Source: Caldifarciminota bacterium (GTDB lineage: Bacteria; Hydrothermota; Tepidihabitantia; SM23-42). Taken from it: DNA of 34,291 bases. Shown piece by piece: positions 2,114-31,915 of the stretch. The stretch spans positions 910,113-944,403 of the forward strand of contig CP070802.1 in the NCBI GenBank assembly GCA_020343595.1. Direction: 5' to 3'. Below the pieces are notes generated by a model, which worked only from the letters and a program-made list of their open reading frames with translations, was not told where the DNA came from and made no database searches. A program made the position numbers and the translations under genes. How positions within the stretch are numbered: position 1 is the stretch's first letter; the number at the start of each line of letters is the position of its first letter.

Positions 2114-3534
2114 CTTATCTTAAGGTCTTTTATGGCTTTTACCTCATCGAGTCGACGGACCGGCGTATTGTGCGGAGCATTCTTCAGCAAGTCGGGGTTT
2201 TCGCTGGATTCCTTGAGAATGGTCTTCATCACGGCGATGAAATGATCTAGTGTCTCCTTGGATTCACTGTCAGTTGGTTCAATCATGAGCGCTTCACTAA
2301 CGATCAACGGAAAGTATATCGTCGGCGCATGAAGACCATAGTCCAAAAGACGCTTAGCTATATCTAAGGTTCTCAATCCCGCATCCTTCAGTTTTCTGCC
2401 GGATAGAACACCTTCATGCATGCAGTAATCCGTATATGGCAGCAGGTAATCATCCTTCAGTGATTGGATTATATAATTGGCATTGAGGATTGAGGATCTG
2501 GATATATCCTTCAGCCCGTCCTTTCCAACGATGCGCAGGTAAGTATACGCCCTTACCATCACCAGAAAATTGCCGTAGAACGATTGAATCTTACCGATCG
2601 AATTTGGAACATCAAAATTGAGTTGGTAACTCCTTCCGTCACTGACAATCGCCGGAACCGGTAGATATGGTTGCAGATTTTGCCTTACGGCAACGGGCCC
2701 CGATCCGGGCCCACCACCGCCATGAGGTGTTGAAAAAGTCTTGTGGAGATTGAAATGAACGGCGTCGAACCCCATATCGCCGGCCTTGGTGATACCAAGT
2801 AAGGCATTGAGATTCGCACCATCCAGATAGACGAGCCCCCCTTTGTCATGCACAATACGGGTGATTCTTTTGACATTCTTTTCAAACAGTCCGAGGGTGT
2901 TGGGGTTTGTTAACATGAGGCCGGCAACCTCAGGGGTCATCAGTTCGATCAATTTTTCAACGTTAACCAATCCATTGTCGCTCGATGGCAGGGTCAGAGG
3001 TTGAAACCCTGAAAAGTTGACGCTTGCCGGGTTCGTGCCATGTGCTGAATCCGGAACCAGGATGTATTTCCGTGCTTCATTCTTTGTGTTGAAATGGGCT
3101 TTGAACATGCTGATCGCGGTGAATTCACCCTGAGCCCCCGCTGCCGGTTGCAGCGTGATAGCATCCAGGTTCACTATTGCTTTGAGATACTCGCCTAATT
3201 CATACATCAAAGAGAGTGCTCCCTGTATTGTATGCAGGGGCTGGAGCGGATGGATCCTTGTGTATCCATGGAGGCGAGACGTTTCTTCATTGATCTTAGG
3301 ATTATATTTCATTGTGCACGAACCAAGCGGATAGAAATTCTTATCGACATGATGGTTCAAGACTGAAAGGTTGACGAAATGCCTCATCACCTGTGGTTCG
3401 CTCACTTCGGGAAGCGGCGTGACCATCTGCCGTCCATAAGCGTTGGGCAATCTATAGGCGGGGACGTCGGTCGAGGGCAGTGAGTAACCCTTTCTTCCAG
3501 TCCTGGTCTGCTCGAAAATGAGTTCCACCGTCAT
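2101..3534 (-). CDS. gcvPB: Glycine dehydrogenase (decarboxylating) subunit 2, P-protein beta subunit
   Basis: This is the pyridoxal-phosphate-bearing half of the two-subunit P-protein of the glycine cleavage system, which decarboxylates glycine and passes the aminomethyl group to lipoylated H-protein. The 477-aa length fits GcvPB. The PLP-binding lysine is K265 in NLHKTFSTPHGGGGPG, and the N-terminal part contains the typical PLGSCTMKYNPK (residues 69-80) and AAGAQGEF (131-138) motifs. The ATG overlaps the stop codon of the preceding DUF6485 gene as ATGA. The usual partner gcvPA, normally immediately upstream, is absent here, as are gcvT and gcvH. The partner must be encoded elsewhere, or this subunit is used differently. 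No glycine riboswitch is seen upstream. Confidence 0.95.
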   Translation of the reverse strand: MTVELIFEQTRTGRKGYSLPSTDVPAYRLPNAYGRQMVTPLPEVSEPQVMRHFVNLSVLNHHVDKNFYPLGSCTMKYNPKINEETSRLHGYTRIHPLQPLHTIQGALSLMYELGEYLKAIVNLDAITLQPAAGAQGEFTAISMFKAHFNTKNEARKYILVPDSAHGTNPASVNFSGFQPLTLPSSDNGLVNVEKLIELMTPEVAGLMLTNPNTLGLFEKNVKRITRIVHDKGGLVYLDGANLNALLGITKAGDMGFDAVHFNLHKTFSTPHGGGGPGSGPVAVRQNLQPYLPVPAIVSDGRSYQLNFDVPNSIGKIQSFYGNFLVMVRAYTYLRIVGKDGLKDISRSSILNANYIIQSLKDDYLLPYTDYCMHEGVLSGRKLKDAGLRTLDIAKRLLDYGLHAPTIYFPLIVSEALMIEPTDSESKETLDHFIAVMKTILKESSENPDLLKNAPHNTPVRRLDEVKAIKDLKIRWKT

Positions 3535-3728
3535 TTACCCGCGTGAATTCTGGCGAACTTCGCGAACGAACGATCGTAAGTTCTCTCGATATCATCGGGA
3601 AAGCAACATGCCGGCAATTGATGCATATTCAGGTGATAACTCAAACATTCACAACATTTGCCTTTTCTGGAACAAGGTTCATAGCTGCAATTGCAGTTCC
3701 TTACATTATCAGCGGATTTGCATTCCAT
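3531..3728 (-). CDS. DUF6485 family cysteine-rich small protein
   Basis: A 65-aa protein rich in cysteine: CNCSYEPCSRKGKCCEC followed by LPACCFPDDIERTYDRS. This pattern matches what I remember of the DUF6485 family, and the cysteines suggest metal or Fe-S binding. Function unknown. The open frame reaches a TTG at 3734, but the ATG at 3728 is preferred because a near-consensus promoter ends five bases upstream, so transcription should start at the ATG itself and the TTG overlaps the -10 box. The mRNA would be leaderless, and there is no Shine-Dalgarno. It is the first gene of the gcvPB operon and its TGA overlaps the gcvPB ATG. Confidence 0.75.
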   Translation of the reverse strand: MECKSADNVRNCNCSYEPCSRKGKCCECLSYHLNMHQLPACCFPDDIERTYDRSFAKFARIHAGK

Positions 3729-3733
3729 CGTCA

Positions 3734-3761
3734 ATTATAGCAAAAAAAAGGGTGGTGTCAA
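3734..3761 (-). promoter_or_regulatory. Sigma-70 type promoter of the DUF6485-gcvPB operon (leaderless)
   Basis: On the minus strand a perfect TTGACA (3761-3756), a 16-bp spacer with a run of eight T, and a perfect TATAAT (3739-3734) are seen. The ATG of the DUF6485 gene begins five bases after the -10 box, so the predicted transcription start coincides with the start codon. Confidence 0.85.
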
Positions 3762-17776: not shown

Positions 17777-18217
17777 TCACTCCTCGACTACATTTGCTCG
17801 TTTGATCGACGCGAAGGGTATGATACGTTCATCTTTTCCTGATGCCACAACGACTCCGTTATTCTCGGTACCTCTTAGGTATCCCCTGATCTTTGTATTT
17901 CCAGTATCGATTTCAACAACGTTGCCGACCGCCCAGGTGAAGTGCTCAGGCTTTTTGAGAACGCGTTCGACGCCTGGCGAGGATACTTCAAGCGTGTAAG
18001 GAAAGTCCAATAATTCTCTTTCGTCGAGTTCGCGTGAAATGATCTTGCTTGTCTTCTGGCAGTCTCCGATCGTGACATTTCCTTTTTCTTTGTCGATGTA
18101 GACCCGTAGCGTCCGTGATATATCATTGTACTCAAAATCATAGAATCTCAATCCAATATCTCTGACGATCTCGTCGATGGTCCGTGCGATCTGGTCAAGA
18201 TCCAAATTCCTATCCAT
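17777..18217 (-). CDS. rimP: Ribosome maturation factor RimP
   Basis: RimP assists 30S subunit assembly. The 146-aa protein has the N-terminal alpha/beta domain (GLRFYDFEYNDISRTLRVYIDKEKG) and the family motif LDFPYTLEVSSPGVERVLKKPEHF, followed by a C-terminal SH3-like barrel (VVEIDTGNTKIRGYLRG). Its start overlaps the proS stop region by 8 bases. Position just before nusA-infB is the standard one. Confidence 0.95.
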   Translation of the reverse strand: MDRNLDLDQIARTIDEIVRDIGLRFYDFEYNDISRTLRVYIDKEKGNVTIGDCQKTSKIISRELDERELLDFPYTLEVSSPGVERVLKKPEHFTWAVGNVVEIDTGNTKIRGYLRGTENNGVVVASGKDERIIPFASIKRANVVEE

Positions 18218-19928
18218 TGATTCTCCGATAAAGCATATCTCTAATCTCGATGCATTTCGTTACCAGCTCGGTCTTGCTCGCTGTTATTATTTCACCTGTT
18301 TCTCTTATGCAGATATCGAGCTGATTATTCTTGATACCCTTAGGGCCAACCGTAATACGGATGGGGATGCCGATTAGATCTGCATCGTTGAACTTGATTC
18401 CAGCCGATATATCCCGGTCGTCTATAATAACCGAGAATTCAGCTTTAGTCAATAACTCGATCGCTTCCTTGCTCGTACTCGAGACGATATCTTCGTGCGG
18501 ATTCAGGATCGTAAGGTGAATATCAAAGGGCGCTATCGATATCGGCCATACGGCACCGCGGTCATCGCTCTTTTGCTCACAGGCACAGGCCATTATTCGT
18601 TCGAGACCAATTCCGTAGCTTCCCATTATTATCGGTTTTGAGTTGCCCTTTTCATCCAGAAAATTCGCACCCAGGCTGATCGAGTACTTGGTGCCGAGTT
18701 TGAAGATATGTCCGAGTTCCAGCGCACTTTCGATAAGCATTTCACCGTCGCATTTTGGACATCGGTCGCCGGATTTGACCTTCCTGATATTTACGTATTT
18801 ATCTATCTTGACGTCACGGTCCAAGTTCAACCCCCGGACATGATAGCCATCCCGATTTGCACCGGTAATCATGCCCCGTGCGCCGCGCAGCAGATCATCC
18901 GCGTATATCGTCAGTCTTTCCATACCGACCGGCCCAATGTATCCAGGTTGGGCTCCGAAGGTTGCTCTGATCTGTTCAGCGCTTGCCGGTTGGTAGTCGT
19001 GTCCAACCAGCCGTTGGATCTTGTCCTCACTTATCTCGTAATCGCCCCGGATCAATAGTAGTACCGGGTCTTTTCCGGCCGCGGTGAAGAAGATGCTCTT
19101 CACAAGATTCTGAGGTGAAACCCTGAGGAATTGTGTCACTTCCTCGACGGTGCGTTTTTCGGGCGTTGCAATCTGCTCGATCGGAAGATCATCGAATGAC
19201 GCAGGTTCTCCCTTACCATCGGCGATCTGCAGATTTGCTCGATAATTGCATTGCCGGCAGATGGCAAGCTGGTCTTCACCGCCAGCGACGGTGGCCATGA
19301 ATTCCTTGGATTCACCGGTTCCCATCAAACCGCCGGATGCATCGACGACAACGAAATCCAGGCCGCATCTCTTGAAGATCTTCTCATATGCTCGCTTGTG
19401 TAGGTTGAAACTATTGTCCAACCCAGCCTCATCGCAATCGAGGCTATAAGAATCTTTCATGATGAATTGTCTCGATCTAATTACCCCTGAACGCGGTCTT
19501 GGTTCGTCACGAAATTTCGTCTGTATTTGGTACCAGATCTGGGGTAGGTCCCGGTAGGACCGGATCATGTTACGCGCGGTGTCAGCGACAATCTCCTCAT
19601 GGGTTGGACAGAGACAATACTCGCGGTCTTTGCGGTCTTTCAGCTGGAACATATCATCTCCAATCTCCTGCAAGCGGCCTGACTCCTCCCAAAGTTCCTT
19701 GGGTGAGATCGCGGGCATGAGTAACTCCTGTCCACCTATCCCATCCATCTCCTCCCGGATGATATTACTGATCTTCAGAAGAATACGCCAGCCGAGTGGC
19801 AAATATGTGTGAATCCCTGAGGCGACCTGTCTTATGAAACCGCCACGCAGTAGAATGCGATGGCTCTTGGACTCGGCTTCCTTGGGATCTTCACGCAGCG
19901 TGGCGATCAATGATTTGTCAAATTTCAT
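18210..19928 (-). CDS. proS: Prolyl-tRNA synthetase (bacterial type, with editing insertion)
   Basis: A class II aminoacyl-tRNA synthetase that charges tRNA-Pro. The 572-aa length matches the bacterial form with an INS editing domain (about residues 220-390). Class II motif 2 is seen as FRDEPRPRSGVIRSRQFIMK and motif 3 as GSYGIGLERIMA; the C-terminal anticodon domain follows (HEDIVSSTSKEAIELLTKAE). An earlier landmark is YLPLGWRILLKISNIIREEMD. The ATG at 19928 lies seven bases after a -10 box, with no Shine-Dalgarno, so the transcript should be essentially leaderless. It heads the nine-gene operon running to ribF. Confidence 0.97.
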   Translation of the reverse strand: MKFDKSLIATLREDPKEAESKSHRILLRGGFIRQVASGIHTYLPLGWRILLKISNIIREEMDGIGGQELLMPAISPKELWEESGRLQEIGDDMFQLKDRKDREYCLCPTHEEIVADTARNMIRSYRDLPQIWYQIQTKFRDEPRPRSGVIRSRQFIMKDSYSLDCDEAGLDNSFNLHKRAYEKIFKRCGLDFVVVDASGGLMGTGESKEFMATVAGGEDQLAICRQCNYRANLQIADGKGEPASFDDLPIEQIATPEKRTVEEVTQFLRVSPQNLVKSIFFTAAGKDPVLLLIRGDYEISEDKIQRLVGHDYQPASAEQIRATFGAQPGYIGPVGMERLTIYADDLLRGARGMITGANRDGYHVRGLNLDRDVKIDKYVNIRKVKSGDRCPKCDGEMLIESALELGHIFKLGTKYSISLGANFLDEKGNSKPIIMGSYGIGLERIMACACEQKSDDRGAVWPISIAPFDIHLTILNPHEDIVSSTSKEAIELLTKAEFSVIIDDRDISAGIKFNDADLIGIPIRITVGPKGIKNNQLDICIRETGEIITASKTELVTKCIEIRDMLYRRING

Positions 19929-19935
19929 AACTTGT

Positions 19936-19964
19936 AGTATATCACAAAATCATGAATATGTCAA
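19936..19964 (-). promoter_or_regulatory. Sigma-70 type promoter of the proS operon (leaderless)
   Basis: On the minus strand TTGACA (19964-19959), a 17-bp spacer and TATACT (19941-19936). The proS ATG follows seven bases later, so the predicted leader is about 0-1 nt. It is divergent from the deoC promoter, with 16 bases between the two -35 boxes. Confidence 0.8.
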
Positions 19965-19980
19965 TACACGCGAGATGTCC

Positions 19981-20008
19981 TTGACTTTTGAAACCAAAAC
20001 ACTAAAAT
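19981..20008 (+). promoter_or_regulatory. Sigma-70 type promoter of deoC (leaderless)
   Basis: TTGACT (19981-19986), a 16-bp spacer and TAAAAT (20003-20008). The deoC ATG begins six bases after the -10 box, placing the expected transcription start at the A of the ATG. Confidence 0.75.
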
Positions 20009-20014
20009 CTAACC

Positions 20015-20680
20015 ATGGATGATCTAAACAGGTTGATTGACCAGACCATTTTGAAACCTGACGCGACCGGTGCGGACATTCAGAATTTCATCAAAGATGT
20101 GGAGAAATACAGGTTCTGCGCTGCGGTGGTCAATCCCTGCTGGGTTTCTGCCCTGGTCGGCAATCTGCCGGCTGATATTAAAGTTTGCAGCGTGGTCGGG
20201 TTTCCTTTTGGTGCCTCGACTACCCGCACCAAGGTTTACGCAGCTGAGGATTTGGTCAGCATGGGATGTGATGAGATCGACATGGTCATGAACATCGGTA
20301 GATTCAAGGAGAAGGATTTCAAGTACGTTGGGAAAGAGATAAAGATGGTTAAGGAAGCCTGTTCAGACCGGGTCCTCAAGGTGATCATCGAAACCTGTCT
20401 ACTCGCCACCGATGAGAAAAAAGCCGCGGCAAACATTGTTCTGGAAAGTGGGGCGGATTTCGTAAAGACGTCGACAGGCTATTCGGTGCGCGGCGCAGAA
20501 ATCGATGATGTAAGACTGTTACGTTCAGTCGTTGGCCCTGATTTCGGTGTCAAGGCTTCAGGCGGCATCCGAACCTATGAGCAGGCCCTGACATTCATTA
20601 CCGCCGGTGCCAACCGAATCGGGACATCCAGCGGTGTGGCAATAGTTCGAGCCGCGGCCCTGGCAATGGGTGCGGAATAG
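20015..20680 (+). CDS. deoC: Deoxyribose-phosphate aldolase
   Basis: DeoC cleaves 2-deoxyribose 5-phosphate to glyceraldehyde 3-phosphate and acetaldehyde in deoxynucleoside salvage. The 221-aa TIM-barrel protein has the Schiff-base lysine K151 in ADFVKTSTGYS, the proton-relay lysine K180 in GVKASGGIRTYEQ and the aspartate D89 in CDEIDMVMNIG. No Shine-Dalgarno precedes the ATG; the promoter ends six bases upstream. It appears monocistronic, since a new promoter precedes rpsU. The stretch downstream (20681-20796) holds no gene, only a weak 5-bp hairpin. Confidence 0.97.
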   Translation: MDDLNRLIDQTILKPDATGADIQNFIKDVEKYRFCAAVVNPCWVSALVGNLPADIKVCSVVGFPFGASTTRTKVYAAEDLVSMGCDEIDMVMNIGRFKEKDFKYVGKEIKMVKEACSDRVLKVIIETCLLATDEKKAAANIVLESGADFVKTSTGYSVRGAEIDDVRLLRSVVGPDFGVKASGGIRTYEQALTFITAGANRIGTSSGVAIVRAAALAMGAE

Positions 20681-20796: not shown

Positions 20797-20824
20797 TTGA
20801 CAAATCACGATTTTTCAATATAAT
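20797..20824 (+). promoter_or_regulatory. Sigma-70 type promoter of the rpsU-mutS2-dnaG-rpoD operon
   Basis: Perfect TTGACA (20797-20802), a 16-bp spacer and perfect TATAAT (20819-20824). Predicted transcription start is near 20831, leaving a leader of about 36 nt with a strong AAAGGAGGTG site (20849-20858) eight bases before the rpsU ATG. Confidence 0.9.
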
Positions 20825-20866: not shown

Positions 20867-21061
20867 ATGACAAAAGTCACAGTTTATGATGGTGAATCTT
20901 TTGACAATGCCCTGCGTCGTTTCCGCAAGTCAGTGGAACGAGCCGGTATCTTGAGGGACGTCAAGCGACATGAAGTTTACGAAAAACCGAGTGAAAAACG
21001 TAAGAGACGTCTAATTTCGGCGCGTAAGAAGGAATGGAAGCGACAAAGGGAGGAGTTATAA
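20867..21061 (+). CDS. rpsU: 30S ribosomal protein S21
   Basis: A 64-aa basic protein with the S21 pattern FDNALRRFRKSVERAGILRDVKRHEVYEKPSEKR, followed by a Lys/Arg-rich tail. S21 binds the 30S platform near the 3' end of 16S rRNA and takes part in initiation. It has the strongest Shine-Dalgarno of the window. It is the first gene of the macromolecular-synthesis operon, and mutS2 begins inside or right at its 3' end. Confidence 0.96.
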   Translation: MTKVTVYDGESFDNALRRFRKSVERAGILRDVKRHEVYEKPSEKRKRRLISARKKEWKRQREEL

Positions 21062-26408: not shown

Positions 26409-26436
26409 TTGACACTTCTTTCGTTCTGTATATAAT
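26409..26436 (+). promoter_or_regulatory. Sigma-70 type promoter of rpsT (leaderless)
   Basis: Perfect TTGACA (26409-26414), a 16-bp spacer and perfect TATAAT (26431-26436). The rpsT ATG starts six bases after the -10 box, so the expected transcription start is the A of the ATG. Confidence 0.9.
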
Positions 26437-26442
26437 TGGCAC

Positions 26443-26697
26443 ATGAAAAGGTCAATCAGCGTTCTTAAAAACATCCGGAAGTCAACCAACAGGCGGATCG
26501 TCAACCGAAATAAGAAGAGGAAGTTAAAGGAAGCAATCAAGAAACTGAAGAAACTTCGTACAAAGAGGTCCGCCATGAAAGCTTATCCTGGCGTCCAGGC
26601 GATTATTGACAAGTCGGTCCAGGATAGGATCATTACCAAGAATACTGCTGCGCGTCATAAGGCGCAGTTAATGAAGCACATAAGCACCCTTAAATAA
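26443..26697 (+). CDS. rpsT: 30S ribosomal protein S20
   Basis: An 84-aa very basic helical protein with the S20 pattern SVLKNIRKSTNRRIVNRNKKRK at the N-terminus and VQDRIITKNTAARHKAQLMKHI at the C-terminus. S20 binds 16S rRNA in the body of the 30S subunit. The gene is monocistronic with its own promoter and no Shine-Dalgarno: the start codon is expected at the very 5' end of the mRNA. A 6-bp stem-loop follows about 30 bases downstream. Confidence 0.96.
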   Translation: MKRSISVLKNIRKSTNRRIVNRNKKRKLKEAIKKLKKLRTKRSAMKAYPGVQAIIDKSVQDRIITKNTAARHKAQLMKHISTLK

Positions 26698-31507: not shown

Positions 31508-31535
31508 TTGACGCAATCCAATATCTAGATATAAT
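31508..31535 (+). promoter_or_regulatory. Sigma-70 type promoter of the rpsF-ssb-rpsR-rplI operon
   Basis: TTGACG (31508-31513), a 16-bp spacer and perfect TATAAT (31530-31535). Predicted start near 31542 gives a leader of about 80 nt before the rpsF ATG. Confidence 0.85.
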
Positions 31536-31561
31536 AGAGCAATAGAATATTGCGCTAGCGA

Positions 31562-31576
31562 AACGCGCTGCGCGTT
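31562..31576 (+). other. Stem-loop in the rpsF mRNA leader
   Basis: AACGCG (31562-31567) pairs with CGCGTT (31571-31576) around a CTG triloop, about 20 nt downstream of the predicted transcription start. Many bacteria control this operon by S6:S18 binding to a leader RNA; whether this hairpin is part of such an element cannot be decided by eye, and I do not see its conserved core clearly. Confidence 0.45.
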
Positions 31577-31621
31577 AAATAAATTGGCGACAAACAAAGG
31601 ATAGATAAAAGGACGAAGAAT

Positions 31622-31915
31622 ATGAGAAATTACGAAGCAATGTTCATTTTTCATCCGGAATTATCTGATGATAAAGTAGAACAGAGCCTTCATGCTGTCG
31701 AGAAGATCATCAAGGATAATGCTCAGGGAGACTTGAAGACCGAGAACCTGGGCAAAAAGACACTCGCCTATCCGATCAGAAAATTGAACGAAGGATACTA
31801 TGTGAACTACCTCTTTGAGGCACAACCGGCCGCCATCGACAAGATCAGAGCAGAGTTGAAGCACAGCGAAGATATTTTGCGTTTCATTATCTTTGTAAAG
31901 GATTCAAAAAAATGA
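31622..31915 (+). CDS. rpsF: 30S ribosomal protein S6
   Basis: A 97-aa protein with the S6 pattern MRNYEAMFIFHPEL at the start, LGKKTLAYPIRKLNEGYYV in the middle and LKHSEDILRFIIFV at the end. S6 pairs with S18 on the 30S platform. AAGGA lies eight bases before the ATG. Its TGA overlaps the ssb ATG as ATGA. Confidence 0.96.
   Translation: MRNYEAMFIFHPELSDDKVEQSLHAVEKIIKDNAQGDLKTENLGKKTLAYPIRKLNEGYYVNYLFEAQPAAIDKIRAELKHSEDILRFIIFVKDSKK

Follow-up and report, generated by a model that had tools for sequence, protein, structure and literature searches.

Start-codon-adjacent sigma-70 promoters and a predicted leaderless gene class in candidate phylum WOR-3

The genes proS and deoC lie back to back in the window (the whole 34,291-nt stretch of DNA analysed here), separated by a gap of 86 bp that holds two divergent sigma-70-type promoters whose -35 boxes are 16 bp apart. 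On the minus strand, proS (prolyl-tRNA synthetase, 18210..19928; NF006625/TIGR00409), with a predicted leaderless start at 19928, is preceded by the 7-nt interval ACAAGTT (19929..19935), a TATACT -10 box with an extended TG (TGA-TATACT, 19936..19941), a 17-bp spacer and a TTGACA -35 box (19959..19964), of which TTGAC is kept in the genomes of the order. This layout, TTGACA-17-TATACT-7-ATG, matches the consensus at 11 of 12 positions. On the plus strand, deoC (deoxyribose-phosphate aldolase, 20015..20680; TIGR00126), with a predicted leaderless start at 20015, follows a TTGACT -35 box (19981..19986, TTGACT in eight of eight genus members), a 16-bp spacer and a TAAAAT -10 box (20003..20008), i.e., TTGACT-16-TAAAAT-6-ATG with 10 of 12 matches. 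The box positions agree with a preliminary description of this DNA, which placed the ends of the two sigma-70 -10 boxes 7 nt (proS) and 6 nt (deoC) before the ATG, and its statement that both genes do without a Shine-Dalgarno (SD) sequence was borne out, as no SD-like sequence was found upstream of either ATG.

The same pattern had been described for two further genes of the window, and it is indeed present there. Both rpsT (ribosomal protein S20, 26443..26697, plus strand; TIGR00029, PF01649) and a gene for a Cys-rich DUF6485 protein of 65 aa (3531..3728, minus strand; PF20095, E 4e-9) are predicted to be leaderless, and each has a TTGACA-16-TATAAT promoter with 12 of 12 consensus matches, ending 6 nt before the rpsT ATG at 26443 (promoter at 26409..26436, plus) and 5 nt before the DUF6485 ATG at 3728 (promoter at 3734..3761, minus). 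The contrast case is rpsU (PF01165), with an equally perfect 12/12 promoter (20797..20824, plus) but 42 nt from the -10 box to the ATG at 20867 and an AAAGGAGG SD. For rpsF, a TTGACG-16-TATAAT promoter lies ~86 nt upstream of the start (window 31508-31622), and no leader family was matched in this interval at the Rfam gathering threshold; across the window, a tRNA was the only known RNA element matched in Rfam. With rpsU and rpsF leadered, and rpsT and the DUF6485 gene -10-adjacent, both modes thus occur side by side in the window.

Judging from its close ProS homologues, which come from candidate division WOR-3 genomes, the source genome (2.37 Mb in one contig) is a member of the candidate phylum WOR-3, and the relatives compared with it make up one genus, family, and order around it. 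We sampled 40 stretches of 20 kb from it which, together with the window, amount to 834 kb or 35% of the genome (GC 48% in this sample). In a test independent of gene calling, we took every ATG that opens an ORF of 60 aa or more and counted it by its distance after promoters with at least 10 of 12 consensus matches. Such ATGs numbered 19, 32, and 17 at 5, 6, and 7 nt after the -10 box, compared to 0–2 at 0–4 nt, 1–4 at 10–14 nt, and ~3 per position beyond 25 nt, i.e., 68 ATGs at 5–7 nt where ~10 would be expected from the distant background (Poisson p ~3e-33), and four permuted motif pairs used as a control on the same 834 kb gave no peak at 5–7 nt. Leader lengths are accordingly bimodal, with a first group at 5–7 nt, a dip at 10–14 nt, and SD-compatible lengths from 15 nt upward. 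A promoter with at least 10 of 12 matches was also found 5–7 nt before the start of 53 of the 670 called genes (resampled upstreams: mean 0.5, maximum 4), and before 2 of 3593 internal in-frame ATGs. The test proposed in the preliminary description, namely a peak at 5–7 nt in the -10-to-start distance, was therefore sharply positive in this genome, and it was so across the order as well (see below). Strong promoters prefer a 16-bp spacer, with 157 such cases vs. 25 with 17 bp among the 210 sites scoring at least 11/12.

We evaluated the size of the class with an EM start model of two signals (SD or -10), in which spacing is learned from the data and the -35 box is not used for classing. Applied to the 670 genes, this model returned 317 SD-led genes, 95 -10-adjacent genes (14%) with a spacing peak at 5–7 nt, and 258 genes with neither signal, these fractions being estimates from 35% of the genome, made with a home-made gene finder that misses small genes and with home-called starts. 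A -35 box with at least five of six matches to TTGACA accompanies 55 of the 95 -10-adjacent genes vs. 8 of the 317 SD-led ones, and the spacer in these -35-bearing -10-adjacent genes is mostly 16 bp. An SD-like 4-mer occurs in only one of 69 strict leaderless cases vs. 325 of 575 other genes, and strict leaderless genes start mostly with ATG (56/69) and otherwise chiefly with GTG (12/69). Like proS, lysS and thrS belong to the predicted leaderless class of this genome. By gene context, the -10-adjacent share is 28% at divergent heads, 25% at same-strand gaps of 40–99 bp, and 7.5% at gaps below 40 bp. Leaderless starts had been put forward as a repeated pattern at operon heads, and this stands as a tendency involving a sizeable minority of heads but not as a rule, since SD-led heads are the commoner type (61 vs. 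36 leaderless among divergent heads; rpsU is SD-led too). Overall, roughly one gene in seven appears to be of the leaderless type, in a class conserved within WOR-3 and standing beside an AGGAGG-type SD class.

These promoters are, very probably, ordinary housekeeping-sigma promoters placed such that the start codon falls at the transcription start, which would make the mRNA leaderless. RNA polymerase would bind the TTGACA/TATAAT-type boxes and start transcription ~6–8 bases past the -10 box, and the first base of the mRNA would then be the A of the AUG or lie up to two bases before it. With leader and SD both absent, the ribosome would have to recognize the 5′-terminal AUG itself, and initiation would presumably follow the leaderless route known from other bacteria (70S or IF2-assisted). 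As the choice of transcription start may shift by a base or two, some mRNAs could carry leaders of 1–3 nt. A closely related reading, which we consider rather unlikely, is that the class has very short leaders (1–5 nt), its mRNAs starting on a base other than the A of the AUG, with functionally the same SD-independent initiation. It would fit the presence of offsets of 5, 6, 7, and in some cases 8–9 nt, and the fact that at 7 nt (proS and part of DUF6485) the canonical +1 is the T before the ATG, whereas the general preference for a purine (YR) start favors the A of the ATG and the offsets are tightly grouped at 5–7 nt, with 6 nt the commonest.

The GTT directly before the proS ATG (19929-19931) is near-invariant, being found in 25 of the 26 order genomes (L122-L147). 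It is not general among leaderless genes with 7-nt spacing, and is seen in several DUF6485 orthologs with this spacing; possibly, it reflects a start-site (YR) constraint. As for the ribosome, loss of S1 as the cause of leaderless starts is not supported, since a 583-aa frame carrying several S1 domains is present in the genome; this protein, together with the AGGAGG SDs found elsewhere, points to a mixed initiation system in which leaderless and SD-led genes would coexist. A 16S rRNA gene, sought for its anti-SD tail, was not found in the single-contig 2.37-Mb assembly, which may be without its rRNA operon.

The -10-to-start arrangement is kept among relatives. In 26 of 26 order genomes at 62–100% identity, the interval between TATANT and the proS ATG is exactly 7 nt (by direct reading of the sequences; an automatic choice of the best hexamer gave 24 of 26), the -10-to-ATG distance of rpsT is 5–6 nt in 25 of 25 order genomes, and that of the DUF6485 gene is 5 or 7 nt in 24 of 24, all three being counts of orthologs that are phylogenetically non-independent. 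In a more distant family (L149-L151, ~51% identity), TATAAT lies 6 nt before the proS ATG. The most telling case is S20: where its N-terminus is ~3 codons longer (L195-L197 and L206), the promoter is found 5–6 nt before the new ATG; it has thus moved with the extended start, and the constraint acts on the distance from promoter to start codon. The arrangement is therefore conserved across the whole order, and is old there. For deoC, the 8 genus members keep a distance of 5–6 nt from the -10 box to the start, including the GTG starts of L154 and L161, and outside the genus the gene is located elsewhere, mostly without a -10-adjacent promoter. The back-to-back pairing of proS and deoC is likewise limited to the genus, with a gap varying from ~79 to 330 bp, so that no constraint on the arrangement is visible and a special role for it was rejected. 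The divergent pairing thus looks recent and incidental, and the leaderless proS old.

If the ATGs had been mis-called, the promoters would be real but translation would proceed from downstream, SD-preceded starts behind a leader of normal length, a scenario we regard as highly improbable. The first residue of ProS aligns to M1 of 2j3l, a solved bacterial ProRS, and residue 4 of DeoC aligns to residue 6 of 5dbu. A further case is GlmS, an N-terminal-nucleophile amidotransferase whose catalytic Cys2 is required and hence fixes Met1: the protein begins MCGI and aligns with M1 of 4amv, and glmS (L088:442-2268, minus strand) is in the -10-adjacent class, with a TACAAT -10 box ending 6 nt before ATG-TGT, an arrangement shared by the GlmS-like starts in G147 and G148. 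Only 3 of the 69 strict cases offer a start preceded by an SD in the 30 codons that follow, and SD-led genes do so at the same frequency (19 of 317). The -10 box also follows the ATG where S20 is extended. On the other side, an SD precedes an alternative start 5–9 codons downstream in two of the 69 strict cases, L096 (minus, 5784 in reverse coordinates) and L108 (minus, 1834), and the called starts of these two may be mis-set. The preliminary description had named SD-preceded true starts located further downstream as one finding that would overturn its reading; this was hence not what we found, and the start codons of the class appear to be the true ones.

That the main transcription comes from other, upstream promoters, with the -10-like boxes at the ATGs being fortuitous AT-rich sequence, is scarcely credible: -10-like hexamers are common in AT-rich intergenic DNA, and additional upstream promoters giving leadered transcripts would be compatible with the sequence, but reversed and permuted patterns yield almost nothing, 55 of 95 genes have a -35 at the right spacing from the -10 box, 53 cases were observed vs. 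0.5 in resampled upstreams, and the spacing is kept over ~60% protein identity while the flanks diverge.

The distribution of such promoters was evaluated by scanning genomes for TTGACN16-18TANAATN5-7ATG, a strict pattern that misses leaderless genes without a -35. The source genome as a whole contains 123 matches at 5–7 nt, 27 at 11–13 nt, 31 at 25–27 nt, and none for the reversed pattern, and the corresponding ranges for each of 27 order genomes are 83–174, 12–45, 17–45, and 0–3. Families f3-f9 of the same class have 38–108 matches, and family f10 mostly 11–47 (73 in one larger genome); in the phylum's other classes, most counts are 0–50. Outside WOR-3 (Ignavibacteria, Acidobacteria, KSB1, TA06, and others), the genomes reached through the ProS search gave 0–12 matches, usually no more than the reversed control. 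The highest counts being in the order, the leaderless-type class would be strongest there; low counts elsewhere are no proof of absence, because the strict pattern skips leaderless genes that have no -35. Within the class, the counts fall several-fold in family f10 (G103-G120) compared to families f1-f2, a contrast suited to asking what goes along with gain or loss of the leaderless type.

Genes with a Pribnow-like box ~10 bp upstream of the start in place of an SD (“TA-led” genes) were reported in 207 of 953 genomes, and make up ~20% of genes in Actinobacteria and ~40% in Deinococcus-Thermus (Zheng et al., 2011, PMC3160421). The WOR-3 class resembles these in that the box takes the place of the SD and that genes of this type and SD-led genes occur in one genome, but its share of ~14% of called genes is lower than in either of these two groups, and the groups that Zheng et al. 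(2011) list mention no WOR-3 genome. In Deinococcus-Thermus, reporter assays identified a -10 motif ~6–7 bp upstream of the ORF as the promoter for leaderless mRNA, the spacing being required, and most genes adjacent to this motif have no classical -35 region (Zhong et al., 2025, PMC12340547). The short, set distance before the ORF is common to both, whereas more than half of the WOR-3 class (55/95) has a near-consensus TTGACA and a 16-bp spacer. In Mycobacterium tuberculosis, about a quarter of the genes with a primary transcription start are leaderless, including 7 of 14 aminoacyl-tRNA synthetases, with no conserved -35 and no leaderless ribosomal protein (Cortes et al., 2013, PMC3898074). 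Aminoacyl-tRNA synthetases are similarly part of the predicted WOR-3 class (proS, lysS, thrS), but here rpsT is predicted to be leaderless behind a 12/12 promoter, and ATG starts dominate. More broadly, leaderless transcription is predicted for 21.6% of the bacterial species in a representative set, a figure which the StartLink authors quote from Lomsadze 2018 (PMC9581028). We found no literature joining leaderless initiation with WOR-3 or Stahlbacteria, or WOR-3 with Shine-Dalgarno, in a search that left most subscription journals outside. Computationally, there is strong support for a real class which would bring the known leaderless phenomenon to a new lineage, and whose distinctive traits are near-consensus -35 boxes with 16-bp spacers and a (predicted) leaderless ribosomal-protein gene.

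An uncultured phylum would thereby join Actinobacteria and Deinococcus-Thermus, in which most work on leaderless genes has been done. In practice, gene finders that rely on an SD will misplace the starts of operon-head genes in genomes of the WOR-3 order. Near-consensus promoters are found on the predicted leaderless rpsT, several tRNA synthetases, glmS, pfkA, and others, and their presence on core genes and a ribosomal protein opposes the view of leaderless mRNAs as weakly or conditionally used. We tentatively suggest, as a possibility that may well not hold, that leaderless initiation is a main mode of strong expression for core genes in this order, rather than a minor route that is weak or tied to stress. 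If so, the translation apparatus would be tuned for efficient 5′-AUG initiation, a trait falling sharply in sister families, and these families, with far fewer such promoters, offer a natural comparison for the ribosome features that accompany the class.
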